The notes beneath the pieces are model-generated. The model was not told the origin of the DNA and did not search any database. It saw only the letters and a list, made by a program, of their open reading frames with translations. Both the position numbers and the translations under genes were made by a program. 64,000 bases of DNA from Polytrichum commune (Eukaryota > Streptophyta > Polytrichopsida > Polytrichales > Polytrichaceae), in NCBI GenBank assembly GCA_950295325.1, contig OX485809.1, forward strand, positions 36,831,081 to 36,895,080, in the 5' to 3' direction. Of the stretch, positions 21,727 through 55,797 are shown one piece after another. Each line of letters starts with the position of its first letter. Position 1 is the stretch's first letter.

Positions 21727-21746
21727 TTTGGGTCGACCGACCCAAA
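21727..21746. repeat. Element A dyad in intron 4
   Basis: TTTGGGTCG-AC-CGACCCAAA, perfect, 22 bp downstream of the exon 4 donor. Confidence 0.95.
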
Positions 21747-21768
21747 CTGAGTGGGGTCAGTGCATTAC

Positions 21769-23220
21769 CTCGCCTTGGTCGTGCCTTGACGACGTGGATG
21801 CCGTCACCGCGTGCGCTGCCCCACCTCTGTCACTGCCGCCTCCGACGACGACGTCAGCCGCAACCTGCTCCTGCAAAGGCTGACTGTCAGGCCTTTGTCC
21901 CAACCCAACCTCCGCATGCGCATCATGCATTGGTTCATTGACTGGGTTAGGAGTAGAGGTATCACCAGGCCCTTGCGGGCCTTCAACATCTAGCATGGGC
22001 TTGTCCACCGGGGTCTGATCGGGGACGGGGTTTGGGTCGGCCGACCCAAACCCTGCTGCTTGGCGAGCGTCGCTCTGGGACGCTGCAACGTCGGCACTGT
22101 TTGGGTCGTCCCGCTGGTGGTGTGGGGGCAAGAGGATGGGAGGCCGGAGCGGCGGGGGTGCCAACGGGCTGGAAGCTCCGGGGACGCGCCAAAGGTTGGG
22201 GTCGTCCACCTGCTGGACGGGCGCGTAAGGGCGGGCGTGCGGCTGCAGCAAATGCGCGAAGCTGAAGGACTGTTGCGGCGCCGGGTGCGGGCGGATATCC
22301 TGTGGAGGGAAGCCTGCGGGAAAGTGAGGGAATGAACTCGGGGGAGCCATCACCAATCCCTGCGCCAGCATGCCCTGGATCACTTGCGTGATCAGGTCCG
22401 CTTGGGACGGAGGTGGGGCCATTGCCCTTTGCCGCTCCTGCTCCAACAGGAGAGCCCTCAACTCCGCGACTTCGTTGCGGACTGAGGGCTCCTCGGCGGC
22501 GGCCTTTTGTAATCGGACGCGTTGCTCCTCGTCCCGGAGCATCTTCGCGTTGGCCTCCTCCACGGTGAGGACCTCGGGTTTCACCCTCACCATCCCGGCG
22601 AACGCTGTGGGAGAGGCAGGATCCGACCTCAGCCTCTTCGCGAGCTCCATGTCGTCCTCGTCCTCGGAGCTTATGGCGATCGTCTCCTCCACCGCATAAT
22701 CGCTGTATAATTTTTTCCCCTTCAGCATTCGCCGCTCCCTGAAGGTGGCCGTCGCGTCCCTCGAATACATGTCCTTCGCGTCGGCCACCGTGAGGACGGG
22801 CACTAGCTTGCTCTGCGGTGTGGCAGGCCGCATGGCCTTCTTCCGCTGAGGGGCCTCGGATTCTTGAGTGAATCATGTTGCCCCTTCCTCCACCTCCCCC
22901 TCCACTTTCTCTGCTTCCTCCTCCTCCTCCTCCTCTTCCTCCCCCTCCTCCGCAACCTCGCCACCTGCTCCCATAGAGGGATTGCCCGGATGCAACCCGA
23001 TGAGCGGCTCTGGCAATTGAATGGGGGCTCGCATGGCGAATTCACCCGGGTTGATTCGCTTCGCCATATCCAAAGGATTCTCACCCCCCTCGACGATCTC
23101 TTCGACGTAGGATCCGGGTATCCAGTCGAGGATGTCCATTCTCTTGGCCAGCGCCTTCTGGGTCCTGTAGAATTGAACATCGACATCCTCCACATAGGAG
23201 TAGATGTTCAACCCAGACAT
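21769..23220 (-). pseudogene. Large gene of element A, exon 4: acidic, coiled-coil and Pro-rich region
   Basis: The acceptor TTGTGCAG precedes ATG TCT (23220) and the donor is GGCGAG|GTAATG (21769). Order: a folded start of about 80 residues (SGLNIYSYVEDVDVQF...), a Glu run, one in-frame TGA at 22873-22875, then EETIAISSEDEDDMELAKRL, a Glu/Arg/Leu coiled coil (VRNEVAELRALLLEQERQR), and a long Pro/Gln-rich tail. The acidic motif and coiled coil have counterparts in element B (46088-47491: IEVSDEDEGDMD and LTVAELNAKLEAKM). The TGA fits CGA to TGA. It probably acts as an oligomerisation and linker part of the multidomain protein; the role is inferred. Confidence 0.7.
22031..22050. repeat. Element A dyad inside coding exon 4
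   Basis: TTTGGGTCG-GC-CGACCCAAA, perfect, read in frame as GFGSADPN in the Pro-rich tail. Element B has its own dyad type in the corresponding tail (46484-46505). Confidence 0.95.
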
Positions 23221-23305
23221 CTGCACAATCAAAATCAATACTATTAGTATCACCAAATGAACAAATAATGGAAAGTGACATCCAAAACAAAATAAGAATA
23301 GTTAG

Positions 23306-23361
23306 TTTGGGTCGAGCGACCCAAACTGTGCATGCCCATAGTTTGGGTCGCTCGACCCAAA
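23306..23361. repeat. Two element A dyads in intron 3
   Basis: 23306-23325 (spacer AG) and 23342-23361 (spacer CT). They occupy a short intron (23221-23395) between the methylase-like exon and the coiled-coil exon. Confidence 0.95.
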
Positions 23362-23395
23362 CCGTCCATATAGTTCCTTCAGGTTATTTGCTTAC

Positions 23396-24727
23396 CATGG
23401 CTGCGAAAACCGGTTTGGAGCCCCCGAAGACGTTGAAGATGCAATCCCCTCTCTTCGTGAGGGTCCTCATCATCCGCAGGTAGAACTCCATGCGCAGCTC
23501 ATCCGCGGGGTAGTTGGTGTACTTCGCCTCATCGTACAAGCTCCTGCTGGTGCCCAACCCTTCTTGGACTTGGAAGAGCTTCTCCATCCTGGCTATGGGA
23601 TGGTTTGGCACCTTAAGCAGCTCAGCTTTATACACAAAGTACAAGCACAGCACGTTGACGATCTTCGTCTTCTTGTCTTTCAGCGTGTTGTACGCCCCCT
23701 CCGCCGGTGCAACAACGTAGTGAGATTTTGAGACGGCGTACTCTGGCTGCAATTTCCGCACGATCTCGTACACCTGCTCTGCCCTCCTGTCCTCAACAAT
23801 CCACAGCCAGACGTCGACCTCCCTGAATTTGGGGTTGCCGTAATCCACAAACTTCATGAAGAACGGCTCGTAGAATGGGGTGCTCATTGTCCCCTCGAAT
23901 GAGGCTCCAGGGATGTTCCTGAAGTCTATCATTCCGAAGGGGAAGCGGTCCCCGGCTTTTGTCCTGATAGCCTTCCTGGCATCAGAGCCCGGCCATCCTT
24001 GGATCTTGAGGGGCTCGAGGGTGACCAAGTTGAAGTAGGCGTCACCCTCGAAGCTGACGATCTTCTTCTCCTTTATAAAGTTGGAGAAGGCACGCGCGGA
24101 GTGTTCGGGAAGCGCCCGGTTCCTCCCCCCCTTCACAAGCTTGGACTTCAAGAAGTCGTCTCCCGCCTCCCTGATGAGTGCCGCCATTGACGCACTGGTG
24201 AACTTGTAGTCGGCTTTGAATGCCCTCCAGTGCGCCTCGTCGACCTCTCCATCCACTATGAGCTTCCTTTCCGGCACCAGCTTGTGCAGCTCCTGGACAA
24301 TGGTCGTCTTCTTTTTCCTATTCTCCGTCCATTCCTTCATGGTGTAGCATGAAGGGACGAAGATTTTGGGCTTGATGAAGACGATCTTCGGGTGGACCCA
24401 ACATCTCTTCGCCGTCGGCTGCACGTGAAGGATGTGGGACGCCGCCTTTCCCATCTCTGTCTCCGAGAGACCTTGAAGAGCTCTGAAGAACTCCCTCACC
24501 AGAGGCTTCATTTGCTTGAAGCGCGCAGTCTGGTTGAAGAGCATGCCGGTGTCGGGATCCATGAGGTCCCCCGTCTCGTGTTTCTCGAAAACACGCTTCC
24601 ATCTCCCCCACACGGAGTCAGACGCTGTGATCAAATAAATTTATCCTCTTAGCTCGTTGTACTTCTTCTGCTTGTGGGAAGCGTTGTCAATCGAGGAGAA
24701 TTTGTTGATCATCTGGTATTTGAAGTC
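23396..24727 (-). pseudogene. Large gene of element A, exon 3: DNA-methyltransferase-like domain
   Basis: The acceptor CATGTGCAG precedes GAC TTC (24727); the donor is GCCATG|GTAAGC (23396). It is open except for one TAA at 24641-24643, where element B has GAA. The C-terminus reads YPADELRMEFY....TKRGDCIFNVFGGSKPVFAAM. This resembles the end of beta-class N4/N6 DNA methylases, where 'P.eLl..li...s..gd.vlDpF.GSGtt..Aa' carries motif I. The position expected for the catalytic DPPY motif reads MIDFRNIPGAS, followed by VDVWLWIVE. If the homology is right, the SAM site is altered (FGGSK) and the catalytic motif is lost, so a DNA-binding pseudo-methylase is likelier than an enzyme. Not verified by profile search. 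Confidence 0.55.
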
Positions 24728-24775
24728 CTGCACATGAAGTAAATAACACACGTTAGAAAACTGCGAATGCAAGAG

Positions 24776-25080
24776 TTTGGGTCGATCGACCCAAACTATA
24801 AACATGACGAGAAAAAGTAAACAATGTTATAGTTTGGGTCGATCGACCCAAACTATAAACACGACGAGAAAAAGTAAACAATGTTATAGTTTGGGTCGAT
24901 CGACCCAAACTATAAACCTCACGAGAAAAAGTAAACAATGTTACAGTTTGGGTCGATCGACCCAAACTATAAACACGACGAGAAAAAGTAAACAATGTTA
25001 TAGTTTGGGTCGATCGACCCAAACTATAAACCTGAATCAAAAAGGTAAATAATTCAAGAGTTTGGGTCGATCGACCCAAA
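24776..25080. repeat. Exact 57-bp array of six perfect dyads in intron 2 of element A
   Basis: Sites start at 24776, 24833, 24890, 24947, 25004 and 25061, all exactly 57 bp apart. All have the fully symmetric spacer AT (TTTGGGTCGATCGACCCAAA). Linkers are near-identical ('ctataaac.cgacgagaaaaagtaaacaatgtta', quoted in short). The array fills the intron between the DGQH exon (ends 25090) and the methylase-like exon (starts 24727). The last site begins 10 bp from the 5' splice site. Confidence 0.97.
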
Positions 25081-25089
25081 CATACTAAC

Positions 25090-26486
25090 CTCCCATTTTG
25101 GGTTTTTGTCTTTAGCATTCTCCCTTTCCTTGGGAGGCCTGCCGTAAAACTCCCACACCTCCCTCGAGGCCATGATGTTCCGAATCCAGGATGTCTGGTA
25201 CGCCCTCTTCTTGTTTCCCATGTTGAAGAAGCGTGAGATGTCGGTTAGTACGGTCTCGTTGTCAGACCAAACCACCAATGCCTTCCACACCTTTAGCTTC
25301 TCCTTTTGGTTGTTGGGGTCGTCCCACTCGGTCATCAGCTGAATTTTTTTAGAGGCCTTCACACTGTGCTGGCCGTCAACCAGCCAGAAGTCGCCTTTGC
25401 ATATTGTCGGCCACATTTCAGGCGTCGGCATTCTCTTCAGCCCTTGCGGCATGACAACAATTGTCTGCATGTCGTCTTTGAATTGCCCTCCCAAGATCTG
25501 AGCGACCATCCAGTCGACGTAGGCGTCCTCCTTGGCTCGGACACACTTCTCAGGTGGCGCAAGGTGGCACTGTGCAATGTTCACCTCGAACTTGAAGTCC
25601 CTGCCCATGAAGAAGCAATGCAGGCACTTCGTCTCGAAGTTATCATTGATTTTCTGTATCTCGCCTGCATCCACCTCTTGGCCAGGTTTCGGCATCCGCA
25701 GCTCCGGGGAAACTGGCTCGGTGGTCATGACGGAGGACTCTCTCGCCCTCTTCGACGAGGTCATCTGTCGGCTTCCTGACGGGGTCGTCTACCGGCTTCC
25801 TGACGGGGTCGTCTGCCGGCTTCCGGAAGGGGTCGTCTGCCGGCTTCCTGACGGTGTGGGCGTCTCGCTGTCAGCCGGCGTTCCTGTAGTGCTAGTCTGT
25901 CTGGAGTCTGCAGGGACCGGACACGGCATCCTCACAGTTTGGGGTCGGACGACCCTGCGCCTTCTTCCGCCGTTGCCTTACGCCTCACAGGCTGCTGCGT
26001 TTTGGCTTTACTTTGCAGCGCCTTGTTGAGGACGGTGATAGCCTGTTTCAATTTTGTAAACCTACTTGCAACCTTCGTGTTGGTTACATTGCCATCTATG
26101 AAAATTGTCTCCGGTTTAATTGTTTCAGGCTCCACGCATGACTCCTTGGCGTATATAGTGTCGAATGACTCGGAGAACTGGTGCATGAACATGTGGGCGT
26201 TCTGCACGGCGGAGTTCTCGAGAATTACGTCCACGTAATCCCCGAGGGCTTGGACGGACGCAACCTCCCATCCTGTCAATGTTGTCCAAGTGTGGTTCTT
26301 GTGGGTCCCTACTTTTACCACGAACAGGAGCTTGAACTGGGAGCCCTTTACAACCTGAACTGACCACGCAAGGACAAGCCCATCTTTGGGCACGTATGAG
26401 TCGTCCTGGGGGGTTTCATACTCCTGCCATATTACGTCTGGCGCGAGCATAAAGAACCTTTCTCCAGGTCTCTTCTTGGGGGCCAT
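25090..26486 (-). pseudogene. Large gene of element A, first coding exon: N-terminal domain, linker and DGQH domain
   Basis: The ATG at 26486 directly follows a GGACTTACAG acceptor. Residues 1-150 form a compact domain shared with B (GWEVASVQALGDYVDVIL). A Ser/Thr/Pro linker then contains a 24-27-bp tandem repeat (about 25768-25855, SGSRQTTP units) and a nuclear-localisation-like SSKRARES. The last 200 residues hold MGRDFKFEV, VVMPQGLKRMP and FWLVDGQHSVKAS. The DGQH signature is known from ParB/DndB/sulfiredoxin-fold proteins. The exon ends PPKERENAKDKNPKWE at a GAG|GTTAGT donor (25090). Lesions: a frameshift near 25935, where a dyad with one extra G sits in the exon, and TAG at 25789-25791 (CAG to TAG). 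Confidence 0.7.
25768..25855 (-). repeat. Short tandem repeat in the linker (about 24-27 bp, four units)
   Basis: Repeated 'cggcttcctgacggggtcg' units encode SGSRQTTP-like repeats on the minus strand. One unit carries the TAG nonsense change. Confidence 0.8.
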
Positions 26487-26514
26487 CTGTAAGTCCAGAA
26501 ATTAAAACTATTAG

Positions 26515-27045
26515 TTTCGGTCGATCGACCCAAAGTAGTCGACAATGCATTTAACATTTGGTGGAAATGGAACAAATGTATTTTATTGACCAGCCCGAAT
26601 TCAAGGTTTGGGTCGATCGACCGAAACCTTGAACACTTGGTGGCTCGTGCTCCTTGTGTGCTGAAATAGACCTATGATGGTTCCTCGTTAGAGAGTTTGT
26701 GTGTATTTAGTATAATATATGTGTATGTACATGATTTCATCAATTTCAATTACGGACATCTGAAGGATTTTTTGATACTTTACTTGTTCAGACGTCGTGT
26801 TTGGGTCGGTCGACCCAAACATGAGGCTTTGTTTTGGGTTTAGGTTCCCAATCATGAGGCCATGTTTGGGTCGAACGACCCCAACATGAGGCTTTCTTTT
26901 GTGTTTAGGTTCACAGACATGTGGCTTTCTTTAGGGGTCAAGGTCCCAAAATGAGGACATGTTTAGGTCGGACGACCCAAACAATAACCTGTGTTTGGGT
27001 CGACCGACCCAAACAAGAGGCTGTGTTTGGGTCGTCTCCCCAAAC
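26515..27045. repeat. Element A dyad cluster in the first intron and leader (seven sites)
   Basis: Sites at 26515 (one mismatch), 26607 (one mismatch), 26800 (perfect), 26865 (one mismatch), 26962 (one mismatch) and 26994 (perfect), plus a decayed site at about 27026. Spacers differ (AT, AT, GT, AA, GA, AC), so the two central bases are not conserved. They lie just upstream of the first coding exon. Confidence 0.93.
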
Positions 27046-27129
27046 AGTATTATTTTATTATATATTTTAAACTTGGCATGAAGCATATACAATGCTTATG
27101 CGTTGTGTATGCTACAAACCATGAATTAA

Positions 27130-27960
27130 ACATCTCACATTGTGGATATAAGAAAACACAATACCTTTGAAAGATGTGTTGCAGACACTTTGGAGTAGAT
27201 CTGGTTCTGTGGCTTCCAAACAATTATAAATTCTCTCAAACAACTCTTGAATCTCTCAACAAACTCTTGAATCTCTGAACGAACTCCTAAACCTCTGAAC
27301 CAACTACTGAATCTCACACACAACTACTATACCTCTGAAACGAATTCGAAATCTCTCAAGCACTCCTTAAACAACACAAGCTCCCAAAACTTCAAAGATA
27401 TAACCACTCCTGAATCTCACAAAAAACTGCTGAATCTATCAAACAAACCTAAAACAACACAAACTCACAAAACGCGCACCTCACAAACACTCCTGAATCT
27501 CACAAGAACTCCTGGACACTCTTCCAACTCTCTTCCAACACTCTTCCAACACTTTCCAACACTCTTCCAACAACTCTTCCAACTCTTTCCTTCACCCTCA
27601 CGCCCTAAAACCTTCCTCCGTGTGTTTCTGGTTTTTCCTAAACTCTTCCTAACTTCCAAGGTTGCACAAGTGCTATTATGTTGTAGAGCAAGAGAAAGGA
27701 GGGATATAGAAGAATGAAATACAAGCAAAACGCGGGAGAAAGCAAACTAAAAGCTACACATGCGCCTGAATCGCCACGCCGCTTCGCGAAAGCGGCGCTT
27801 CCAAGCGAGGCACGGAGCGTATGCTTGGCGCGGAGAGTAAGAGAGAAAGAATGAAATTTTGTGACGGTTGGGGTTTTGTTTGCCTCGGGAATTGGCCCCC
27901 AACTGCGCGAATAGGGTGCCCACAAGATTAGGGCACCCACGGGAATAGGGATATAGGGAA
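27130..27960 (-). promoter_or_regulatory. Leader and promoter region of the large gene in element A
   Basis: On the minus strand the block reads as GAGAG/TTGAG/GGAGT-rich leader repeats (27230-27600, seen as 'ctctcaaacaactcttgaat' on the plus strand). It is preceded by a GC-rich patch (27770-27835). Elements B (51350-52090) and C (10090-10530) have equivalent GA-rich leaders next to a GC-rich block in the same relative place. Assigned as 5' untranslated exon and promoter by position and similarity only. Confidence 0.45.
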
Positions 27961-30900
27961 CCCTAAATTCGAAAGCCCGACTCTAAACCCTTAGCGGGCC
28001 TACCTCTTTAAAAAGGCATAGGCAATTTCCCTCATGGCATAGGTTGCATACTACAATATCAAATTTTTGTAAGTTGAAAACCTTTTGAGCCTTTAAGTTA
28101 CCCGCCAATTGCCTTCAAAACTAATTTTTAGTAGGTTAAAATCCTTCATATCTTTTAATGTTGTAGGTTTTAAATTCAATTACCCGCCAATTGCATTCAA
28201 AATTTGAGTACTAAGTCGTATCCTTGGCAGGAATTGAACCTGGCTAAGCCTTTCACCACGTTTGAAGGCCAAGGATTAACCATCTGTTTTTTAAAGCGTT
28301 GATTATAAGTTATGAAAGGTTGCTAAAATTCAAATGAGTTCAAGGGTGAAAGTCCTCACCATCTTCTGATTCAACCTCTACTCTTCCTAAGATATAGCCT
28401 AAAGATATGTACTTAGGCCAACTAATTTCCTAATTTGAAGAAGGATGAATGGCCAAAATCCTCTCTTTTAAACAAATTGTATGTAAAATTTCCTACATGT
28501 TTTTTATCACATAGGTTGATATCCTATGTTCTTAAATTGTGCATAGGCTCTTTGTCCTACACTTTCAAAATTTTATAGGCTAAGTCACTTATTTTTTAGG
28601 CTACATTTGTATTAATCACTTTATTCGTTAATTTGTGATGGTTTAGGTAGGACGACCCAAACATTAGACTATGTTGTTGTGGTCTTACAATAAATATGGT
28701 TCTAAGCCCTTGAAATAATTGGATGACTTTATGGTTCTATTCTCAAACCTAAGTTTGATCCTCGACTTCATGTATAACTCTACTATGATGTATAAAATGG
28801 CCCCCACCCCCACCAAAGCTTTTGTACAAGTTTCTCAAGATTTCAATCCCTTGTGCTTGTGATCATTTCCTAATCCACTAGACTGTTTTCTCTAATTAGT
28901 GTGGGTTACCATTCAGAGCTACACATTTCTGTAACATTTAATAGAAAGTATTTTTTTCATCCAAATAACATAAGTAGGTAGTATGCACACGAAAGATTAT
29001 GATCTGACTTAGTTGGTTAAAAACGATAATGTCGGTAAAAAGTTATAGCAAGACATAATTATGAAGTGCACAAGTGCACCTCTCGTTCATCCAACATAAA
29101 GCCCTTAAATAGTATGTAACTTGATCTCTGGAGTACACTAAGGGTCTACATAAAATGTGTTATTCTACAAAACTAACCATTTATATAGCCAATGCATTCT
29201 TACAACAAAACTTTATGCTAAACTATTACTTAACCCCTACATACATGACACCATACCCTCCCTTTTCCAAACACATTGAAGGCATTGGTTTCTCTTTTGT
29301 TTGACCATTTTAGGAAAACCATACAATTGCGTGATATTTGACGATGGAATCATTGACATCTAGACTTTACCAATGATGCCAACAACTCACACGATATTGA
29401 ATGAATAAAAAAGGGGTCCCACACCCCCCAACATGTGGAACAATTTAGAATACGTGAGTGTGGAGCCTATTAAATGAATACCTTCCCCAACTGCATTTTG
29501 TAAGGGTTTTGAAATGCATGATCCTTATTTGAAAATACTAACATGCGCAAGTTTTAAGTACATCCCTGAGATCGTGACTTTGATGACTTCGCCAATAAAC
29601 CATGGTTCACGATATATTTAATATATAGATTATGATATAAGAGTAAATCGGATAAGCACAACATGAAATGAAACCATTCAAGCAATCATGTTGTTATTCA
29701 TTGTTCCCTCCATGTATATTAGATGATGGCGCAAGATAAATTAGATGTTGTTTGTATATGGGGGCATCAGTGAACCACAACTACATTTGGTGTTTAGGGT
29801 TTAGGGTTTAGGGTTTAGGAGATATGGTTATAACATATTAATCTATCCAATGTCAATGTATAACATTGTCTTACTCGTGAGAAGAGTCTTATAGGAAGGT
29901 TATAGTGAAGACGATATTGATTATGTTAATTTGTTATTTGAGACGTTTAAACATGATATATTGATTGGTCGTGTGTTTATTCAAATAACATGAAATATTG
30001 TGGATGTTAATAGGGGCTAGGGGTCCAACTTTGGATGTTTCGCTCACTTTAGGGAATCACATATTAGTCGCTAATAAACCATCGTTCATGATGTATTTCA
30101 TATATGGAATGTGATGTAAAAGTAAATCGGAGAAGCACAACATCATGTTGTTATTCATTGTTCTCTCCACGTGTATTAGATAATGGAGGAAGATATAACA
30201 GATATTGTTTGCATAATATGAAGAAGAGTCCAATCGGAAGGTCATAGTAAATACAATCTTCATCATGTTAATATGATATATGGGACGTTTAAACATGATA
30301 TCCTAATTGGTTTTGTATGTAGTCAATGCGTATTTCATGTTGTGGATGTTATAAGGGTTTAGGGTCCAATCTTCGATGTTTTGCTCTCACACATTAGTAA
30401 ACTTGAAGTGAACTTGAGGATGGATTCAAGTAACATTAAAAGATTGAACTAAAAAGGGACATTGGTAGTTAGTATCCCCTTAATAACGTCCACATACGTT
30501 CGTCATTGCCACTCTTGCATGTGAGATAATAGAGCAAGGTTCTAGGGTTTAGGGTTTAGGGGAGACAAATAAATAATTCTATTCATAATGACAATGGCCT
30601 CAAGCCTTGGAAACTCTCTCATAATTGCAGCCTCCAAATGGCCCAAACCCCACCTAAATAGGTTTACACTTGAAAGCATTGAATGGAGTTGTGTTTGGGT
30701 CTACATATTGGTTAAAATATACCTTGATGATACTTGAAAAAATTAATGTGGCCGCCACCCTTCCTCCAAACGGCGTATGTCATATCCACACAAGACAAAA
30801 AAAAAAAAATTAAATATCATAGACTAAGTCATATGACGGTTGGGGTATCAGAGGGGCATTGATAGATGCGCATTTTCTACTATAAACAGAAAACGGGGAA

Positions 30901-31220
30901 TTATGTCAGGAGGTTTGAAAAAACCTATGCAGGAGAACAAGGCGGGAAAGGCATCCAATGAGGAAGTCGGAGAAACGGAGGTGGATAGTATAAAGGGACG
31001 CACCCCCCAAAAGTCTGTCATTTTTTGCTCTTCTCCCACTCTTGAATTCGTAGAGAGAACTCTTAGTCGGAGCTATACTTCAAGGTTCGTGCATGCTGCC
31101 GTTCATTAGCACTTATCCACAGCATGCAAGTTCATGAGCACCTATCCACAGCATGGAAGCCCACCGGGAACTTTGCAATGAGCTCAAAATCATATGGAAT
31201 TTCGGATTATCCGCCGCATT
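27961..31220. other. 3.3-kb spacer between the two divergent genes of element A
   Basis: AT-rich, no supported gene. It contains a decayed dyad at about 28641-28662 ('gtttaggtaggacgacccaa'), a solo MITE end at about 28892, short TTTAGGG runs at about 29791-29818 and 30541-30558, and two related segments (about 29590-30030 and 30055-30380: 'taataaaccatcgttcatga', 'acatcatgttgttattcattg') that look like a diverged tandem duplication. Reading frames here are short and unconvincing. Confidence 0.5.
28205..28280 (-). other. Possible tRNA-like (SINE head) fragment
   Basis: On the minus strand a T-arm-like stretch containing GGTTCAATTCC, close to the RNA polymerase III B box, sits about 45 bp after TGGTTAATCCTTGG. 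A complete cloverleaf was not demonstrated. It may be a tRNA relic or a SINE head. Confidence 0.2.
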
Positions 31221-31260
31221 ATCCGCCGGATTTTGAGGGTTTCAGTGTGACTCTTATCAG

Positions 31261-31867
31261 GTTTGGGTCGGTCGACCGAAACCCCTCCACTAGTGTGGGC
31301 GGGTTTCAGCCTGACCCTTACACAGGTTTGGGTCGGTCGACCGAAACCCCTCCACTAGTGTGGGAGGGTTTCAGCCTGACCTTTACCAGGTTTGGGTCGG
31401 TCGACCGAAACCCCTCCAGTAGTGTGGGCGGGTTTCAGCCTGACCCTTACCAGGTTTGGGTTGGTCGACCCAAACCCCTCCACTAGTGTGGGCGGGTTCA
31501 GCCTGACCTTTGCCAGGTTTAGGTCGGTCGACCCAAACCCCTCCACTAGTGTGGGAGGGTTTAGCCTGACCCTGATCAAGTTTGGGTCGGTCGACCCAAA
31601 CCCCTCCACTAGTGTGGGCGGGTTCAGCCTGACCTTTGCCAGGTTTGGGTCGGTCGACCCAAACCCCTCCACTAGTGTGGGAGGGTTCAGCCTGACCCTG
31701 ATCAGGTTTGGGTCGGTCGACCCAAACCCCTCGACCAGTGTGGGCGGGCTTGACCAAAACCCCTCGACCCCTTGACATACAATGTTTGGGTCGACCGACC
31801 CAAACCCCAACCCCAGCTTGGGCGGCTGGAGGTTGACCATGAGAAGGTTTGGGTCGGTCGACCCAAA
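31261..31867. repeat. Tandem array of dyads upstream of the DUF7869 gene in element A (ten sites)
   Basis: Eight units at 31261, 31326, 31390, 31454, 31517, 31580, 31643 and 31706 (63-65 bp apart) are followed by single sites at 31785 and 31848. Most read TTTGGGTCG-GT-CGACCCAAA; the first three have CGACCGAAA. The linker 'cctccactagtgtggg' is also dyad-like. The array ends 190 bp before the start codon of the transposase-like gene. Confidence 0.96.
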
Positions 31868-45749: not shown

Positions 45750-46037
45750 TGAGGTGTGCATGCAAAGAATGCAAGGACGCGCAAGAGCACAGACAACACA
45801 AGACGCGAGAATATGCAATAAGTTGAGGGGATGCGAGCAGAGATCGTCTGCTCATATATTAATTCGGTGAATATGTACATTTGTCTCGCGTGATAATCTA
45901 TCACAATTTCCTAAGGAAAAAATGCAGTGTCCTATAAAATTGATCGGCCCAAGCGATCACGTAGAAAAATGCTCGCGCGGGCAACGTGATGTCGATGGAG
46001 TTGAAGCGCCAAGAACACAACGCGGGGGGTTAGTGAT

Positions 46038-46116
46038 ATTACGAACGCGCGTTCGTAAAACATTTGGCATTCTCAGAGATGAGTTACCTCTTTGATTAAC
46101 GAACGCGCGTTCGTAA
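46038..46116. repeat. Two element B dyads flanking the exon 4 donor
   Basis: 46038-46059 (ATTACGAACGCGCGTTCGTA core, intronic, 28 bp from the donor) and about 46095-46116 (inside exon 4, read as ITNARS, 7 bp from the donor). Confidence 0.92.
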
Positions 46117-47491
46117 TATCCATTGGGGAAGCAGCCTCTGGATCCATGACCTCCGCTGGACGCTCCTCCTGAGACGACTGGGTCTGTTGGATGAGATCCA
46201 CGTCGTCGTCCCCGCCCAGGTCGAGTCTCTCCATGCGGACATCCTCCATGTGCGCGGACGGATGCCCTTCCTGGTCAGGGCTCTCCACGACCATCCCACG
46301 CGGACCTGTCGAGTCATTGGGGCTCCCCTGCGTTTCCTCCACAATGACCATGTCAGTGTGTTGCGCAGTGTCATCGCCCCGCCTATCTAGAACCCTTGGG
46401 ACGACGGTGAAAGAGGCCGTGTCGGTGTCTGTGGGCAGTCCTACCCTTGAAGGGGGAGGGGTGAGGACTGCCGGACCTGAAGATTCACGAACGCGCGTTC
46501 GTAAATCTTCGTCCTCCCTTAGCGCCGCCGTGATTGCATCGTGGGAGGTTGAGGCGGCCGCCGTCACTTCGGGGGGCAATGGACTTCCCGCCGGCGTTGG
46601 GTGTGGCGCTGTTTGGTGGGAAGGCCCTCCTTGGTACATGACTGGAGGTGGGGGTTGTGAGGGGTATCCTCCAGGGGGGAAGGGGTAAGGTTGCTGGACC
46701 GGCGCAGAGAGGCTCTGCATGTTTCTGAGCATCTCGAAGATGGCGTCGGTTTTGGCCGCTGAATCCCTCAGCTGCTCTTGCAGCCTGGCCAGATGCTTGG
46801 CGCTCTCCTCCTGTGCTGCAGCCATCTCCTCCTTCATCTTCGCCTCCAGCTTGGCGTTGAGCTCAGCGACGGTGAGTGCCTCCTCCTTCACCCGTTTGTT
46901 CTTGTCGTAGTCCACGCCAAGCTCGGCCATGATGTCCATGTCCCCCTCGTCCTCGTCCGAGACCTCGATGATTGCTCCCGGCGGCAACTCCACGTATGGA
47001 GTCTTCTTCATCCTCCTCCTCGTGTTGCGGAAGAGGTCCAAAGATGGCCGCGAGCGTTGGTCGAGGATGTCCAGGGTTTCCATCTTCGGAACCACGGCGG
47101 GCCTTGGAGAGTGTGACGTCGAGCATCCGCCTGGCGTTCCGAAAGGCTCCGCAAGAGATGTTCTCGCCGGGAGGACGTCCAGGGTTGTCCCCGCGGACGA
47201 CCCGGTGTAACCACCCGGCGTCCCTTGAGGGTCGGGAAGATCTGTCGTTGGCGGCACGATCCAAAGTGGGGGTACGTCGAAGGACTGCAGAATGGCGTCC
47301 ACGTTGGCGGAGGGGGTGGGCTCGTCGTCCTCAGAATCGTGGAATGGTATGCCCTTGTCGGCGGGCATATTGAAGTACATCCTGGGGACAGAGATGTCCT
47401 TGAGGTCCATTGTCGACGCCTTCGCACGGTGGATCTTGAAGTCTTCTTCGTCGATAGCGTCAACAAATGTGTTGACTACGAGACCCATCAT
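46088..47491 (-). CDS. Large gene of element B, exon 4: acidic, coiled-coil and Pro-rich region
   Basis: The acceptor TTCTCACAG precedes ATG ATG (47491); the donor is AAAGAG|GTAACT (46088). The exon is fully open. The order matches element A: a folded start (GLVVNTFVDAIDEEDFKIH), Pro/Thr-rich linkers with repeated GTPGGY/GTPGGC, a basic RNTRRRMKK patch, IEVSDEDEGDMD, a Lys/Glu/Ala coiled coil (about residues 225-290 of the exon) and a Pro-rich tail. Two dyads are embedded in the coding sequence. A linker and oligomerisation role in the multidomain protein is likely. Confidence 0.72.
46484..46505. repeat. Element B dyad inside coding exon 4
   Basis: TTCACGAACG-CG-CGTTCGTAAA, read in frame as LRTRVRES in the Pro-rich tail; counterpart of 22031-22050 in element A. 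Confidence 0.93.
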
Positions 47492-47519
47492 CTGTGAGAA
47501 GAGAGCAATAAGGTCAGAA

Positions 47520-47694
47520 AATACGAACGCACGTTCGTAAACATCAAAGCGTAGCGTGCAACGAGTTTCAAGCATTACATTACGAAGGGGTTATGTTTAT
47601 GAACGAGCGTTCGTAAACATGAATGCGTCACGTGCAGAGACTGTGAAACAATACATTGAGAAGTTGGTTAACTTTACGAACGAGCGTTCGTAAA
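47520..47694. repeat. Three element B dyads in intron 3
   Basis: 47520-47541, 47596-47617 and 47673-47694 (perfect). Intron 47492-47713. Element A has two dyads of its own type in the same intron. Confidence 0.95.
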
Positions 47695-47713
47695 TGGAGT
47701 CTAGACAACTTAC

Positions 47714-49043
47714 CATGGCCGCATACATGAATTTGGAGCCTCCACATACGTTGTATACCGTCTCTCCACTTATAACCAGACTCTGCAATACAGAGACGTA
47801 GAACTCCATCCTGAGTTCCATGGCGGGGAAGACGGTGTAGAGGGTCTCTTGCAGCAGATCCTTGGGAGGGGGATGCGGGATGCTGTAGATTTTCTTGAAC
47901 GTGTTGTTTGCCTTGATAGGCGGTCGCCCATCCCTTAGCTCATTGTACGTCAAGAAAATCAGGCTGACCGCTCCCACCTGCTTGTTGCCTCTGGCCTCGT
48001 TGATGGCCACAATCCCCTCCGTCTTCGCTGGCACGTACGTGCTGTGGAAGATGCTGTACTCGAATTTGATCTTCTGCTCATACAGCTCTGTGACCACAGA
48101 CAGCTTCTCTTGTTCGACTATCCACAGCCAAACGTGTGGCTCCCTCATGGCCGGCGATTTGAACTCCATGAACTTGGCCATGAAAGGGTTGTAGAAGGGA
48201 ATGTCCTTCCCCCCCTGCCTTGACGCACCCGGGATCCCCCTGAAATCGATGAGGGCAAAAGGGCAACCCCGTCGATCCTCCCTCACCTCGGCCCTGCTGA
48301 TGGTGCCGTCCCACTTGGAAAATGTGACCCTCTCCACGCCGGAGGTGATCACGCAAAACCTTGCCACTCCTTCGAATGTGGCGTTCCTCTTCCTCTCCAA
48401 AAATTTTAAGTACAGCATAACCTCATGGGGATCCATGTCGGTTTTCTTAGTCCTTAATTTTGTTCCCCTTCAACTTCAAAACCGAGGCGTGCTCCTTGAC
48501 CAGACTGCGCATGGAGGCTCCGTTGATGTTGTAGTCAACCTTTAACATTTGCCATTGCGGCCAGATGATGTCGCCGTCGACTTCAAAGATTCTGTACTCT
48601 GGTACGAGTACGCTCAACTCTCTCATGGCTGCAGTCTTCAGCTTCCGGTGGTCACACCACTCTTTGATAGAGTACGTGCCGGGCTTGTGCTTTGGCCTCT
48701 TCAAAAAGATCTTGGGATAGGGAAGGGTTCTTCCCACGGTGTTCCCAAGAACATGAATCGCACACCTCTTCAGCTCTGACTCCGTCAATCCCTGGAGGTG
48801 TCTAAAGAACTCCCTCAGTAGTGGGGGCGCTTCACCGGTTTTTTCCGTGCTGTACTTCTCCTCCGTGTCGGGGTTGACCAAATCGCCCGAGCTGTGTGCA
48901 TCAAAAAACTGGGTCCACAAATCCCATGTGTCCCTGTTGCAGCAGATCAGTCTGAGCTCACCCTTCAGCTCAAGCACAGACTTTGTGATGGTGGACTTCA
49001 TATCGATGGAAGAGAACTTGTCTACCATCGCGTCGCAAAATGC
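47714..49043 (-). pseudogene. Large gene of element B, exon 3: DNA-methyltransferase-like domain
   Basis: Homologous to 23396-24727. The C-terminus is PAMELRMEFY...SGETVYNVCGGSKFMYAAM at a GCCATG|GTAAGT donor (47714). Upstream lie PFALIDFRGIPGAS and PHVWLWIVEQEK, where a beta-class methylase would carry DPPY. Two lesions: a one-base frameshift near 48462-48468, and a destroyed 3' splice site. Where element A has GTGCAG before the exon, B reads GTGCAA (49044-49045), so the only nearby AG is one base late and out of frame. The catalytic motif is absent in both elements, suggesting an ancestral pseudo-enzyme. Confidence 0.58.
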
Positions 49044-49074
49044 TTGCACAAAACAAGATGTCAGTATTGCACAT

Positions 49075-49153
49075 AATACGAACGCACGTTGTAAAGCACG
49101 TCAGTAATTGATGTTTTCGTGAGTCCAACACTTTACGAACGTTCGTTCGTAAA
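49075..49153. repeat. Two element B dyads in intron 2
   Basis: About 49075-49095 (one base lost from the right half) and 49132-49153 (TTTACGAACG-TT-CGTTCGTAAA, perfect). The second begins 5 bp from the 5' splice site of the DGQH exon. Confidence 0.93.
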
Positions 49154-49158
49154 CTCAC

Positions 49159-50451
49159 CTTCCATTGAGGAGACTGGTTCTTGGCGTTCTCCCTCTCCTT
49201 TGGTGGGCATCCGTGTGCCACCCAGACGTCTCTCGCAGCCACTATGTTAGCCGCCCACGAAGCCTCGAACGCCTTGATTTTGTTCCCCGAGTTCAGGAAG
49301 GTTGAAATCTTGCGCAGCTTGTCCCAATCGTCCGACCAGACCAAGAACGCCTTCCAGTACCGCAGGTCAGCCTTCAGCTCGTGCTGGAAGTTGTCGTCCT
49401 TGAGGATCTGTTGCGACGCCTCCAAGCTATGTTGACCATCTATAATCCAGAATTCTCCATTCTGGATTCGCGGCCAATCCATCTCTGTCGGTCGGGATGT
49501 CAGCCCCTTGGGCATGACGCAGACGGTCTGCCTATCCCACTTTACGTTGTTCATGAGGTTGTTGATCTGCCACTTCACCCCACCGCTCTCGCGAGACCTT
49601 ACCACCCACTTGTTGGGGGACTTTTCGCACTTGAAGCAGTCCACGTTGAACGTGAAGTGGCGCCCCATGGGCCAGCAATCCTTTGAGTAATTATTGAAAT
49701 CTCGTAGGATCTTTGTTGCCTTCACTGCATCTGGATTCTCACCCTTCTTTAAAGGGGTTGGCATCAGGGGAGGAGAGCTCACCTCAGCGCCCTCTGTTAC
49801 CCCAGACCTCTCCATTTCGTCCCGGGACCTCTTCGATGGCGTGGAATGTCGGCTGGGACCCTCCGTCACCCTGCTCGCGGAAGGCACCGGCCTGGGTGCA
49901 CTTCTCGATCCTCCTGCCCCGGATGCTGATGGTTTTCGTGGGCTCTTCTTCTTCTTGTTGGCTTCGGCGACCGCGCTATTGTACTTGGAGATATTCAAGG
50001 AAAGCGCGGCCAACTTCCTTGCTGTCCAGTACGAGCTCAGGGCGTACTTCGTGAACAGGTCCTTGAGGAAGTGTTTGGCATCAGCCACTACGTTATTTTC
50101 TGCGTATGTGTAGGAGAAACTATGTCTCCTGTACTCTAACAGGAGGTTAATGTGATCCTTCTTATTTTTCATGTCTAAAATCACATAATCTCCTTGTGCC
50201 TCAATTGATTCTACTTCCCAAGTCTTCATCTGCACCCATTGCTCTGGCTGGTCCGGCGTTGTTTCTAGCTCGTAGGTGAAGCGAAGATAGAAAAGACCGT
50301 CTGATGTCTTCTCTGGCAGTGCCATCCATTCCCCAATGAAGTCCTCCTTCGGGACATAATTATCGTTTCCGTTGGGGTCAGACACTGACTCTGGTAGCTG
50401 ATCTATCTGCACTGCGAACATCTCAATGGCGCTCCTGCTCGGTCTAGCCAT
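49159..50451 (-). CDS. Large gene of element B, first coding exon: N-terminal domain and DGQH domain
   Basis: The ATG at 50451 directly follows a CTCTGCAG acceptor; the exon ends CAATGGAAG|GTGAGT (49159). 431 codons, fully open. Residues 1-175 form an N-terminal domain (WEVESIEAQGDYVILDM). A basic, Ser/Pro linker follows with KKKKSPRKPS and TPSKRSRDE, probable nuclear localisation signals. Residues 250-431 form the DGQH domain: MGRHFTFNV, a CFKCEKSPNKW Cys pair, VCVMPKGLTSRP, FWIIDGQHSLEAS, FLNSGNKIKAFEASW, PPKERENAKNQSPQWK. DGQH recalls DndB/ParB-like proteins that act on DNA. Arg, usual after DGQH in DndB, is Ser here. The best candidate for dyad recognition is this domain or the methylase-like one; this is inference. 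Confidence 0.72.
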
Positions 50452-50481
50452 CTGCAGAGCACATAAACATTTAGTATTGTG

Positions 50482-51005
50482 TTTACGAACGAGCGTTCGT
50501 AATTGACAAGCAAATCATATATACTAATCAATGAACGCTGGCTATGGGTACCCGTGAGGAGTTTTAATTATGTCTTCGCTGATTTCATTTACGAACGATC
50601 GTTCGTAAAGAATGTGGTTGCTAAGGTGTATTTGACACAAGTTTACGAACGTGCGTTCGTATTGTTTGTAAACAAGTCCACGAGTTGTCCAGTGTTATCT
50701 AATTTCCACGAGGGTTGTTCGAATTTCCATGAGCATCTTCTAAATAGGTGAATTAATACTTTAGTTCTTAATTACGAACAATTACCATTAAGGGTTTGGG
50801 ATATTATTATAGTTTGTGATTACGAACGTTCGTTCGTATTTTTGTATGTTTCATTTGGATTTGAGGATGTACAGGGTATAGACGAATATACGAACGTGCG
50901 TTCGTAAAAATGGAGGGCGAGGTGCGTATTTACGAACGCACGTTCGTATATGTTTGTGGGGTAAGGCATGTTTTCACGCCACATTTACGAACGAACGTTC
51001 GTAAA
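50482..51005. repeat. Element B dyad cluster in the first intron (eight sites)
   Basis: 50482, 50588, 50642, 50819, 50887, 50929 and 50984 (22 bp each, all with at most two changes), plus a half-site at about 50771. Spacers differ between sites (AG, AT, TG, TT, TG, CA, AA). Confidence 0.95.
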
Positions 51006-51029
51006 TGTGGTCATCTGGGATTAGGAAAT

Positions 51030-51100
51030 GGTATATTTATTTATATACGTACGTATACGTACATATACGTATATGTATATGCACATATACGTATATATGT
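51030..51100. repeat. TACGTA/TATA simple-sequence tract
   Basis: Alternating 'tatacgtacgtatacgta' and 'catatacgtatat' words, low complexity. Confidence 0.7.
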
Positions 51101-51349
51101 TGTTATGAATGTTGCGATCTGGTATTGTTCATGATCCTGCAACTCGTAATCAGATTGATGAAACACAAGTGAAAAATGGAATCAGAACAAAATTGCGAGT
51201 CAGTGATTGATAGTTCAGAATGAAGAGGAAAGTGTTATTTCATACAAAACATGCCATGCCTCATAATGCAGAAAACAAATCACAAGGAATTCATCAAACA
51301 ACAATTTCAGATTGTGAAGGACTGATTTGTAAAGGAAACCTGTACTCAC

Positions 51350-52100
51350 ATTGAATTGTTGCACAGAAAACCTCCTGCCTCCTACTGAGAAATCCAGAAA
51401 TCCTCACAAATGCACACCAAATTGTCTTTCAAAAGCGCTGAATTCGCTTTCAATTGCAATTTCACTTTGTCACACTCTCAAGCCTTCACAACTTTTATGC
51501 AAATCCTACACAAACCCTGATGTACACAACTCACAACCTTCAGAAATCTCAAGCTTTCTGAAACTCTCAAGCTCTCAAGCTTTCCTACTCTCAAGCTCTC
51601 AACCTTTCTGAAACTCTCAAGCTCTCAACCTTTCTAAAACTCTCCACTTCTCAATCTTTCTAAAACTCAAGCTCTCAAGCTTTCTAAAACTCTAAACCTC
51701 TCAACCTTTCTATAACTCTCAACCTCTCAACCTTTCCTACTCTCAAGCTTTCCTATTCTCAAGGTTCTGACAACACAACAAAACAACATACACAATGACG
51801 CTCTAAAATTGGCAAGGGCTTCGCCGCACCTAAGAGCTCCTCTCCCCCTCTGCTCCAAATGACAAATGAGGAGGAGAGAGAGGGGCGCGGGGAGGTAGTC
51901 GGCGCCGCTAGGGTTTCCAAGCGGCAGCCACGTGGCTAGTGGCCACTAGCTAGGGCTGGGATGGGGGAGGGGGATGGGGATGGGGATGGAGGGAATGGGG
52001 AGGGGATGGGATGGGGGGGATGGGGGGGGAGGGGATGGGATGAGGATGGGATGGGAGAGGGGGAGGGGGAGGGGATGGGGATGAGGGGATACCATGGGGA
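51350..52100 (-). promoter_or_regulatory. Leader and promoter block of the large gene in element B
   Basis: On the minus strand: a CCATCCC-rich tract, 'ccctagcggcgccgac', 'tacctcccc', 'ttgtcatttggagca', then a leader of GAGAGCTTGAGAG-type repeats (51500-51780). The same order is found in element C (10090-10530). It places the transcription start of the large gene about 1.4 kb upstream of the ATG, with an intron carrying the dyad cluster in between. Confidence 0.5.
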
Positions 52101-53740
52101 CATGGAGGGATGAGGGTTCAGAAAAAATGAAATAGGAGATGGGAGGAGCTTAGTTTAGGGACATAAATTTAACTTTCCGTATCCCCTTAGTACCTCGACA
52201 TATGGATTCCTTGTAAACATATATAAATGACTCAATTTGAATTATGGAGAGGGGCTATCTGATTCTCCACAAGAGGTGGATGAAAATTCAATTTTCAATA
52301 CGATGTCATTAATTTAATGAGGTGTTAGCTTGAACCACCTTTAATATGATATTTAGTGTTAGATACTCTAAATACAAACGCATAGTACACTAAATATCAC
52401 TAACCCTATGAAAGTAACTACTATTCATTGTGAACTCAAACACTTAATTTCAACTATAATGGTAATATGTGGATGTCGCATGCACAAATTTTGTGTAAGG
52501 AAATTAATATGAAAAAAACAATTAACAATGATAAAAGCATAAAGGACATGGTAGTAGGAAATGTGGTGGCCCATTTAATATGTCCAACACTAATTATCAA
52601 ATAATTGAAATTTAGTGTTGACCATGATAGTGTAACAACACTATATTATACAATCAAACACTTAATATCATATTTAGTGTAGTGTATTATAGCCATGTGG
52701 TCGCATGTTTTGCTAGTAGTATCAATAATTGATAGTATGAGCTTCCCATAAATTAAGTTAGTGCGATATGGATTATTTAGGAGTCGATATTGTTTGTGTA
52801 TATAATGCATTGAAGTAACGATCTAAACCCTAAGCCCGCAAACCACATAGACAACTTTCACAAACTCTATACCCTAACCCCAAACTCTAAACCCTACATC
52901 TTTTTATCTTACCAACCTTTCTTATATATGGCCATGTTGTGGTCTATGCGCATCATGTCAAAATGGTCTACGAATGTTGGTTCGATTGGAACTTGCCTTA
53001 TTTGGGTCATAGCAACTATAATAATCTAGACTCATGCCAATAATTGTCATTTTGATATAAAACATTGGTTTAGGGGGTGAAGAATGAATTTTGAAATGCT
53101 AGCCCTTTCACCTTAATAGTTTTGAGTGCAATTTGATCACAAAATACACACTTAGTCTTATTATAACATGAATGGTTTAAGACTTCAACTTAAATCAACA
53201 GTTTAAGCTATGGTCATGCACATACTTCTTGTTGCAAATAATACAAATATATAATTGTAAGTGCATACTATTGTATGCACCATTCCAAATTAGTTATCCA
53301 TTTCCACACCATGGTGGACCTAAAGTGAATTTCCAATAGGACGTTAAGTCATTTAATTAGGTGTCAACTTGAACTAACGATCGAATACTAGTGCATTAAA
53401 CTTTAATTTTCACCAATGATGAATTGCAACAATGAGTCATATTAATATGGGGCGATGTTTGGTGAGCCTCCAGTTCCAAATGTCCTCAATCTACCTAGCA
53501 CAAGCCACTATGGATTAAGCGACTTTTTATTGGTATTCATGCACTTGGTGACCATATTACAAGCATTTTTTTTATGTGAATCATATGATACCTACAATTT
53601 TAGGAGATTCCACAATATGTTCTTAGCCACTCTTACCTCATTGTGTGTGTGAATATATATATATCACTTAGACCTTCATCAATTCACTTGGACTTCACAC
53701 CTTAGTCGCAAATAATTTAATACTCAATGTTAACCCATCA
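52101..53740. other. Spacer of element B including MITE F copy 2
   Basis: No gene supported. Bases about 52330-52687 are a reverse-oriented MITE F copy (TTTAGTGT-rich, ending 'aatatcatatttagtgtag'). It preserves the empty target sites of element C and of the 934-bp hAT. 'ccctaaacc' words at 52830-52900 are degenerate telomere-like repeats. Confidence 0.65.
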
Positions 53741-53744
53741 ACCC

Positions 53745-53923
53745 ATATATATATAATATAATAACTCATATATAAAATAGTAAAATATAAATTATACATA
53801 TATATACATATATACACATATATATACACATATATACACATATATATACATACATATACATACATATATATATACATATATACATATATATACATATATA
53901 TATATACATACATATACATATAC

Positions 53924-53968
<45 letters not shown>

Positions 53969-54115
53969 CATATATATACATATACATATATACATATATA
54001 TACATATACATATATACATATATATACATATACATATATACATATATATACATATACATATATACATATATACATATACATATACATATATACATATAGA
54101 CATATAGACATATTT
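53745..54115. repeat. TATACA/TATA microsatellite, about 370 bp
   Basis: Almost uninterrupted 'acatatatacatatac' repeats. The Tyr/Ile/Met-rich reading frames across it are compositional artefacts. Confidence 0.95.
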
Positions 54116-54487
54116 TCGTGCGACCTTGGTAACAACTAAGGTGTGCGACGGATTTATAGATTTACAATATGTTGCGTGCACGCAACACATGTTCCATACA
54201 TAATGCTATTTATATATTGCGCATGGATGAAATGGCATATTGTTAGGTCAAAGTAGGCGGCGGGAATCCGCTTTTTAAATAGCATCCAAGGGATTTTGAA
54301 CCATCGGGGGAAAGGTACTTAAAGCTCTTCCCCCCACAGAAGAGCTCTTTTCTGCGGCACATCCAAGTGTGCGCTCCACAGACCTGACTGGAACGCGCTC
54401 AAACCATTTTCTTGTGCGCCAACCCCACACCTCCCAGATCCACTACAGACTGCACATACCTGTATATACCGCCGCAAATACTGGACG

Positions 54488-55473
54488 TTTACGAACGCAC
54501 GTTCGTAAACGTGAATTGGTAGCACATGCAGAAAAGGTACATAGAGATGATGTGAATTGTTTACGAACGTGCGTTCGTAAGTTGTTCACAACCGTACTCG
54601 ACATTGAGTTACTTATAGACAGAACTAGGCACGAAAATTGTGTCGATTATATACGAACGTGCGTTCGTATATCTGCCTTCAAGACCCAGACGCGCATGAG
54701 TTCCCGTGTAACCGTTTTCTCCAACGGAACATTTGATGATGGGATATTTACGAACGTGCGTTCGTAAATATCACCTGAGATTATTTTTCAAGAATCCATA
54801 AACATTCCTTAATTTATACACTTCCGCGCATTGGCCACGTTAACAATATGGAAGTTAAATACGAACGCTCGTTCATATTTCTCACTACCATTTATGTCCA
54901 CAGAGAATTATGTTTTCCAATTTTACGAACACACGTTCGTAAATACCACCTGTCCACCGTCCATGCATCCACCAACAGAACTGTTAACGCAAGCATGTGT
55001 GGAGGACTACACCATGTTTAGGATAGATACGAACGCTCGTTCGTATTTGGCACTACCATTTATGTCCACGGAGAATTATGTTTTTGAATTTTACGAACGC
55101 ACGTTCGTAAATACCACCTGTCCACCGTCCACGCATCCACCAACAGACATGTTGACGCAAGCATGTGTAGAGGACTACACCGTGTTAATGATAGATACGA
55201 ACGTTCGTTCGTATCTGTTCAATCACGATTTTAGTGATAGATGTCGATTGTCATTTTCCACTGGATATTGAATTTCATGTATCCCTGTAACGTGGCTATA
55301 GATATCTCTATTCGGACGTGTCCAATCATTTTTGCCTAACAATGTCACGGCTGTAACATACATATGATCGGTCGTATGCATCCGCCCCTATGTTTCGGCT
55401 GGAACTTACGAACGATCGTTCGTGTACATAAGCCCTCCATTTCGGCTATAGCTAACGAACGATCGTTCGTAAA
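54488..55473. repeat. Element B dyad cluster upstream of the DUF7869 gene (eleven sites)
   Basis: 54488, 54560, 54650, 54747, 54858, 54922, 55026, 55090, 55194, 55405 and 55452. Sites 54858/54922 recur at 55026/55090 and start again at 55194, exact 168-bp steps, so a 168-bp unit with two dyads is tandemly duplicated. Positionally equivalent to the array at 31261-31867 in element A. Confidence 0.95.
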
Positions 55474-55775
55474 CTCTCCCCCATCAAATACACGCCCCTC
55501 AAATATGATGCTTACTGCATGTGAATAAAGTGGCAAGTATATTTTTGGTGCTCTTATAATATGTCCCATTTAGATTTTATTGTATATTGGGTTGATGTTT
55601 TCGTCCTCGCGTTCGTGAATATATGTGCTTGTGTTATCCCTTGGTGGTGGAAAACCCTTCCAATGTTTTATTTGCGACTCCACCCAAAGCCCTTCATGGG
55701 TAATATATATCGGAATGGGGTTCCGTTGTGCAGGGACGTCTGAGTCTCGTGTAGGATTTGTATGTCATGGGGATG

Positions 55776-55797
55776 TTGTCGAACGCACGTTCGTCTT
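55776..55797. repeat. Element B dyad close to the DUF7869 start
   Basis: TTGTCGAACG-CA-CGTTCGTCTT, central 14 bp conserved, about 140 bp before the start codon at 55938. Confidence 0.8.

Follow-up and report, generated by a model that had tools for sequence, protein, structure and literature searches.

Lineage-specific palindromic words in Polytrichum commune transposons and a candidate element-encoded ParB/methyltransferase-like reader

What reads a short palindrome that recurs dozens of times within a transposable element and changes its letters from one element type to the next? The question arises in a 64,000-nt stretch of the Polytrichum commune genome (GCA_950295325.1, OX485809.1, positions 36,831,081-36,895,080, forward strand; hereafter the window), which holds three elements, A (16650-35661), B (43231-59484) and C (7803-14339, B-like and inverted). 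In A and B, the palindromes, or dyads, lie mainly in the introns of a reverse-strand gene for a ParB/methylase-like protein and upstream of a forward-strand gene for a DUF7869 protein, the probable transposase. An original prediction took them for binding sites of an element-encoded dimer whose specificity had switched between lineages. The evidence presented here makes it probable that the dyads are bound by a symmetric dimer of the element's own ParB/methylase-like protein, with each lineage reading its own word, and that binding opens or feeds back on the two transcription units.

Each element type carries its own dyad

Allowing up to three mismatches, the A word TTTGGGTCGNNCGACCCAAA (W3) was found at 27 window sites, every one in element A (21727-31867; GTTTGGGTCG-NN-CGACCCAAAC), and the B/C word TTACGAACGNNCGTTCGTAA (W1) at 51, of which 29 lie in B (45598-55472; TTTACGAACG-NN-CGTTCGTAAA) and 22 in C (8738-13140). 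These counts are close to the roughly 26, 30 and 24 predicted for A, B and C. As also predicted, neither word occurred in the other element type or in flanking DNA (0 of 78 sites outside the elements), although the span given for the pattern, 21727-55797, misses element C. Exactly four mismatches added four A-word and seven B-word matches, all within elements. A blind scan of the window for perfect 9+2+9 dyads returned 51, comprising 18 of TTACGAACG, 17 of TTTGGGTCG, three of the variant ATACGAACG and 13 composed of A and T only; 20 first-order Markov resamples of the window gave zero or one each. When 8-bp half-sites were scanned, the A and B words came top at a spacer of 2 bp, reappeared as the same sites in another register at spacers 0 and 4, and did not feature among the leading words for spacers of 1 or 3 bp. 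The expected dyad with its 2-bp spacer thus held, but the half-site, put at 9-10 bp, measures 10 bp (GTTTGGGTCG, TTTACGAACG; tenth position G in 96% of A and T in 77% of B), and the spacer is free yet skewed, with GT or AT in 18 of 27 A spacers.

Dyads occupied introns 1-4 and the region upstream of the DUF7869 gene in both A and B, in line with the original prediction, and exon 4 in addition. Counting A/B, there were 6/7 in intron 1 (B, 50452-51345, 5′ border inferred), 6/1 in intron 2 (A, 24728-25089, in a 57-bp tandem array; B, 49043-49158), 2/3 in intron 3 (23221-23395; 47492-47713) and 1/5 in intron 4 (B, 45464-46087), all on the reverse strand. Exon 4, on the same strand, had 1/2 (A, 21769-23220, dyad at 22031; B, 46088-47491, dyads at 46097 and 46485), so that 3 of the 56 A/B sites are exonic. 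The array before the DUF7869 gene contributed 10/11 (A, 31237-32030, 63-bp period; B, 54300-55800; forward strand) and the long divergent intergenic region 1/0. Exons 2, 3 and 5, the DUF7869 gene (A, 32031-35130; B, 55801-59078; forward strand) and both element ends contained none in either element.

Seven words share one skeleton

Words were read at 30 W1-clade loci, 30 loci of a second clade (L039-L068), 14 A-side loci (eight of the A clade and six P0053-like) and four further loci (L083-L086). All 30 W1-clade loci carried W1 and none carried W2 or W3. The second clade carried W2, TTACGGACG, which is the B word with one letter altered in both halves, at 30 of 30 loci, with W3 at none. The A-side loci had W3 in 14 of 14 cases and neither W1 nor W2. 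Other perfect CG-cored dyads in these 30+30+14 loci amounted to one each of TTATGAACG, TTATGGACG and TTTGGATCG. Among the further loci, L083 had W1, L084 and L085 had W2, and L086 (G000:C1:38978290-38978710) had TTATGGACG in both halves, which may be a nascent word or the product of paired CpG decay. At the intron-2 starts of 57 loci, an intact dyad begins after 6 nt in W1 loci, as in B itself, and after 19 nt in W2 loci.

Database proteins that read through a splice donor display the start of the intron in translation, and 105 such tails were decoded. A decoder for perfect 9+2+9 dyads with half-sites ending in CG matched 61 of 4899 tail windows versus 4 of 5578 control windows. The controls came from the coding parts of five proteins, two more having been passed over for want of the splice motif, and the four control matches included none of the seven words. 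Word-specific patterns, made after the tails had been seen, located a dyad in 65 of 105 tails and none in 40, with 20 readings ambiguous between W1 and W2. No tail had two different words, and the same patterns gave no match in 36,966 residues of coding sequence. The tails supplied W4 (TTTGGGCCG, two tails), W5 (TTTCGGGCG, three), W6 (TTTCGGTCG, one) and W7 (TTACGnCCG, one). W5 and W6 were not confirmed in DNA, as the own-genome copies (69-72% to P0053) carry W3 in six of six cases; single W6-type half-sites are present in four A-side dyads. All seven words fit TTnnGnnCG-NN-CGnnCnnAA, with differences mirrored in both halves, so the words, described in the original prediction as non-homologous, have a common skeleton and differ in the other letters.

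Words follow the protein lineage and show signs of constraint

We built a tree of 61 exon-2 proteins with tails removed, 55 from the database and six from genomic loci (13 tried; seven were not excised by the pattern). Word labels were available for 41 rows, and 20 had no readable word. On this tree the seven words require six changes, the minimum, versus 17-27 in 300 label shuffles. W4, W6 and W7 label one row each, which makes three of the six changes unavoidable; monophyly is tested by W1, W2, W3 and W5 alone. The approximately unbiased test was not used because the forced grouping omitted unread rows nested in it. The deepest split separates TTACG words from TTTSG words, and shallower steps alter one or two positions, in both halves. 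The word is co-inherited with the protein lineage, which supports the predicted switch of specificity between lineages.

Comparison of one copy each from two W1 subfamilies, L012 and L083 (99% and 89% to B exon 2), revealed two intron-2 dyads that match at 20 of 20 bases each, along with their spacers, whereas the intervening 38 and 43 bases aligned barely above shuffles (score reached by 61 of 500). Across 316 W1 dyads from 30 loci, 146 of 210 altered letters are one position-1 T-to-A difference and two are other position-1 changes; 57 of the remaining 62 are CpG transitions, a decay pattern that would be expected from deamination of methylated CpG. Of the 104 altered letters in 232 W2 dyads, 74 are position-6 differences that show the letter of W1.

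Genome-wide distribution

The 408 Mb of genome searched contained 3737 exact W1 and 9731 exact W3 sites, and none for either pattern reversed. Protein searches returned more than 1000 first-look candidates each, part of which were scored (for example, 97 of 1084 for the B query). Scored copies numbered at least 97 near B (86-100% identity), at least 97 in the second clade (query P0020, 74-90%), at least 92 in the A clade (P0045, 87-95%) and at least 87 by P0053 (68-72%), the last two lists overlapping. Association was assessed on the first 100 listed sites per word, on contig C1. Of the W1 sites, 45 had a scored W1-clade gene copy no more than 8 kb away and none had a scored W2- or W3-clade copy nearby; 38 of the W3 sites lay near W3-clade copies and none near copies of other clades. 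Moreover, 63 of the W3 sites fell inside elements with exact paired terminal inverted repeats (TIRs), or 81 including one half-bounded element. Neighbouring sites were separated by a median of 78 bp (W3) and 85 bp (W1), versus genome means of 42 kb and 109 kb. The proposed co-location with family members is therefore seen for these 45 and 38 sites, the rest having no scored copy nearby, and dyads distributed independently of the elements were not seen on the listed part of the genome. Among C1 copies in exact-TIR pairs (1 of 14 W1, 4 of 13 W2 and 12 of 17 W3), one TIR type was common to W1- and W2-clade copies and another was found in W3 copies. In viral contigs, the extended W1 dyad had no match, and the exon-2 pattern hit 13 stretches, none of them confirmed.

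The protein of the dyad-bearing gene

Exons 2-5 of the dyad-bearing gene appear to make one protein, with the NIF domain exon apparently the last. In B, exon 2 (49159-50451, reverse strand, open) encodes a beta-rich N domain followed by a ParB/Srx-like DGQH domain; the predicted model has the ParB/Srx N-terminal fold, and its structural matches include KorB, titled a transcriptional repressor. The fold of A exon 2 (25090-26486, reverse) is taken from that of B. The tripeptide GQH is present in 34 of 35 exon-2 family rows, and the remaining row, P0036, stops short of it. Exon 3 (A, 23396-24727; B, 47714-49042; reverse) has a class I, amino-methyltransferase-like fold in the predicted model. The catalytic motif of amino-methyltransferases, [DNS]PP[YFW], is found in none of 54 exon-3 rows and is replaced by DFRxxPG. 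Exon 5 (A, 20444-21254; B, 44698-45463; reverse) carries a NIF/HAD phosphatase-like domain (PF03031, E 8.7e-15 and 7.7e-16 for the two window copies). NIF phosphatases of the SCP/FCP1 type have the motif DxDx[TV]; both A and B have DLNGV in its place. Identity between A and B is 32-44% for the ParB/methylase-like gene versus 64%, over 497 aa, for the DUF7869 product.

At the thresholds applied, Pfam gave nothing for window exons 2-4 beyond one match at E 0.1 (exon 2) and one at E 0.16 (exon 3), and a PDB sequence search with both profiles gave weak matches alone (best E 0.78 and 0.87). A weak DUF6551 match of exon 2 (12 of 35 members, best E 0.012) was not used. Of the two analogies in the original prediction, ParB gains support from the modelled fold of exon 2; for VANC, the anti-silencing proteins of VANDAL elements discussed below, no sequence link emerged: in a family-level comparison, Pfam matches with E values up to 10 for 35 exon-2 and 54 exon-3 members included no VANC-related family.

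Element ends and copy number

Self-comparison and end alignment gave all three elements the same terminal 13 bp, AACACTATATTCG, and a perfect 4-bp target duplication: GTAT for A (19,012 bp, AACACTATATTCG...CGAATATAGTGTT), GTAT for B (16,254 bp) and TTGA for C (6,537 bp). A 4-bp target duplication is also characteristic of Sola1 transposons; the transposase domain matched here was DUF7869 only. With up to two mismatches, the 28-bp element end occurred 1306 times forward and 1289 times reverse genome-wide (reversed control, 0), which corresponds to about 1300 element copies if both ends are retained. By tblastn, the coding remnants of C consist of a NIF fragment alone; at the DNA level, C also matches the beginning of the DUF7869 gene (67%, B 55843-56074). 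Because the coding part is mostly gone and yet the W1 dyads are retained, C is a non-autonomous derivative. The left arm of A also contains a DDE_1 transposase open reading frame (18540-19631, reverse), probably a nested or captured element. A Transposase_21 (tnp2) open reading frame (62588-63268, forward) lies outside all three elements, and the divergent intergenic region of B holds a long TA-rich microsatellite (53785-54113).

How the dyads may be read

Together, the exact spacing and symmetry of the dyads, their mirrored changes and their independence of transcript strand argue for recognition of the DNA by a protein dimer. The product of the dyad-bearing gene is the best candidate reader because its fold is of ParB type, its divergence outpaces that of the DUF7869 protein and its clades match the words; we infer that it binds its sites as a dimer. 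The putative transposase is unlikely to be the reader because both element ends lack dyads. The candidate would combine the beta-rich N domain, the ParB/Srx fold, a methyltransferase fold without catalytic motif and the phosphatase-like domain, and would be encoded by a gene with about half of the dyads in its introns. Its contacts to TT..G..CG would be conserved, and those to the other four half-site positions would vary. Binding would serve to mark the lineage's elements, derepress them or autoregulate them. Occupancy of the sites in the gene encoding the reader and of the array before the putative transposase gene would then open, or feed back on, these two units. One autonomous copy could act on all copies with its word, the non-autonomous C included, and new words would spread by tandem duplication and array conversion while the protein diverges. 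By analogy, derepression with autoregulation seems favoured over repression, since VANC motifs likewise lie in introns of element genes and upstream of VANA21.

Several observations weigh against this reading. Co-inheritance of word and protein clade could come from linkage within the element without any contact. None of the first 100 listed W1 sites lay inside an element with exact paired TIRs; 55 of the 100 W1 and 62 of the 100 W3 sites had no scored copy nearby; and only five of the 20 W1 sites with the rare spacer TA (a complete list, compared by eye) had a scored copy within about 7 kb. Random mixing of dyad types within one lineage was not seen at the loci read, but 23 of the 30 W2 loci retain one W1 dyad, always 57-60 bp before exon 2, which may be either a leftover or a functional site in its own right. 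Frames are broken in both window copies of the gene (A exon 2 between about 25932 and 25788, with an in-frame stop in A exon 3 near 24642; B exon 3 near 48447-48469). Foldseek matches of the exon-2 and exon-3 models were all above E 0.001. ParB CTPases bind CTP through the motif G.RR..A, which is present in none of 35 exon-2 rows. ParB proteins read parS by a helix-turn-helix, and no helix-turn-helix family was among the Pfam matches of exon 2; in the model, the predicted local distance difference test score is mostly below 50 past residue 389.

The main rival is that the same protein reads the dyads but represses, shutting off its own gene and the transposase gene to control copy number. Sites in its own gene and before the transposase gene form a classical autoregulation layout, the loss of the enzyme motifs leaves a binding protein, and the title of KorB, a ParB relative that acts as a transcriptional repressor in plasmid RK2, fits such a role. 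We nevertheless regard repression as unlikely: numerous sites fall inside introns, a long way from the promoter; a selfish element should be selected for derepression first; and the near-identity of many scored copies, with the query or among themselves, suggests recently active families. It is improbable that the dyads are read by the DUF7869 protein, or by another element product, for excision or strand pairing. Although one array sits directly upstream of the DUF7869 gene and En/Spm has repeated transposase-binding motifs near its ends, neither end of A or B has a dyad, W1 and W2 copies have different words on one TIR type (W3 copies having another), and DUF7869 proteins remain 64% conserved across the word switch.

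Dyads that are targets of a host factor, or structural by-products of tandem repeats that match lineages through whole-element inheritance, would explain why many sit in tandem arrays, and linkage by itself yields phylogenetic agreement. This account is quite improbable given that perfect dyads are spread over four different introns, one exon and the upstream array, that word changes are present in both halves and that, in one pair of copies, the dyads stayed unchanged while the intervening intron turned over; a host factor, moreover, would need no separate word for each co-resident family. Action as RNA, through intronic hairpins that affect splicing, is barely credible. Many sites are intronic and one intron-2 dyad starts 6-19 nt into the intron, but the strict 2-nt loop is too short for stability, its length is fixed where it should drift, and exon 4 and the region before the gene on the other strand have sites as well.

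Relation to known systems and implications

The ParB/Srx N-domain fold is common to the exon-2 protein and the ParB-parS, Noc and KorB systems, in which dimers read palindromic sites and specificity switches between homologues. The present system differs from bacterial ParB in that neither a helix-turn-helix nor G.RR..A was found, sites of 10+2+10 design occur by the dozens per element, and the carrier is a eukaryotic transposon. It differs from MTA1, METTL3/METTL14 and bacterial amino-methyltransferases in having DFRxxPG instead of [DNS]PP[YFW] in 54 of 54 rows. TnpA of En/Spm is another element-encoded factor with many target copies, 12-bp repeats, and is linked to promoter demethylation; unlike the dyads, its sites are subterminal and are not spaced palindromes, and the protein is not known to be related.

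A close parallel is VANC21 of the Arabidopsis VANDAL Mutator-like elements, for which hypomethylation has been demonstrated and whose 9-bp motif, YAGTATTAY, has a single orientation (PMC5735166, as available in part). According to that portion of the paper, VANC resembles the present case in an element-encoded protein with a dense short motif in non-coding DNA, among other places in introns of genes belonging to the element and upstream of VANA21, in spread by tandem repeats, in joint divergence of motif and protein, and in a dense motif unique to the family (PMC5735166). The clustering of a motif in non-coding parts of a transposon family is likewise what we observed, in the window and on the listed part of the genome. 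The sites differ in that ours form a spaced palindrome, with seven words on one skeleton, and the VANC motif as described there is no spaced palindrome (PMC5735166). A further parallel, by its description, is the giant DNA transposon Sola1-1_Ec32 of Ectocarpus, whose accessory gene and transposase lie on opposite strands, the former encoding ParB-like and DNA amino-methyltransferase domains (PMC12477816, as available in part). That accessory protein is a predicted N4/N6 methylase proposed to bind and modify its own transposon, and the portion of the report available names no target site (PMC12477816). Here, by comparison, none of 54 rows has the catalytic motif, the gene continues into a phosphatase-like exon, and there are candidate target sites.

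A literature search found no paper on a dyad code for ParB-methylase-type proteins, most subscription papers being beyond its reach. We propose that what is new here is a VANC-like self-addressing that uses unrelated ParB/methylase-type parts and a palindromic, multi-word code. Tentatively, this may amount to a parS-like address system derived from a bacterial-type ParB/methylase fusion: a 10+2+10 code with an invariant skeleton, four variable positions per half-site and at least seven words, each private to a lineage, in which several autonomous families would coexist in one genome without activating one another and the dead methylase and phosphatase would serve as reading or recruiting modules.

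On this reading, candidate targets of ParB-methylase accessory proteins become visible, thousands of them in a single genome, in parallel words that can be ordered on a tree. Swap experiments could then test directly the code by which a rapidly evolving DNA-binding protein recognises its scattered sites. These elements would also provide a second, independent case, beside VANC, of selfish elements that recognise copies of themselves and diverge into lineages that do not interact.

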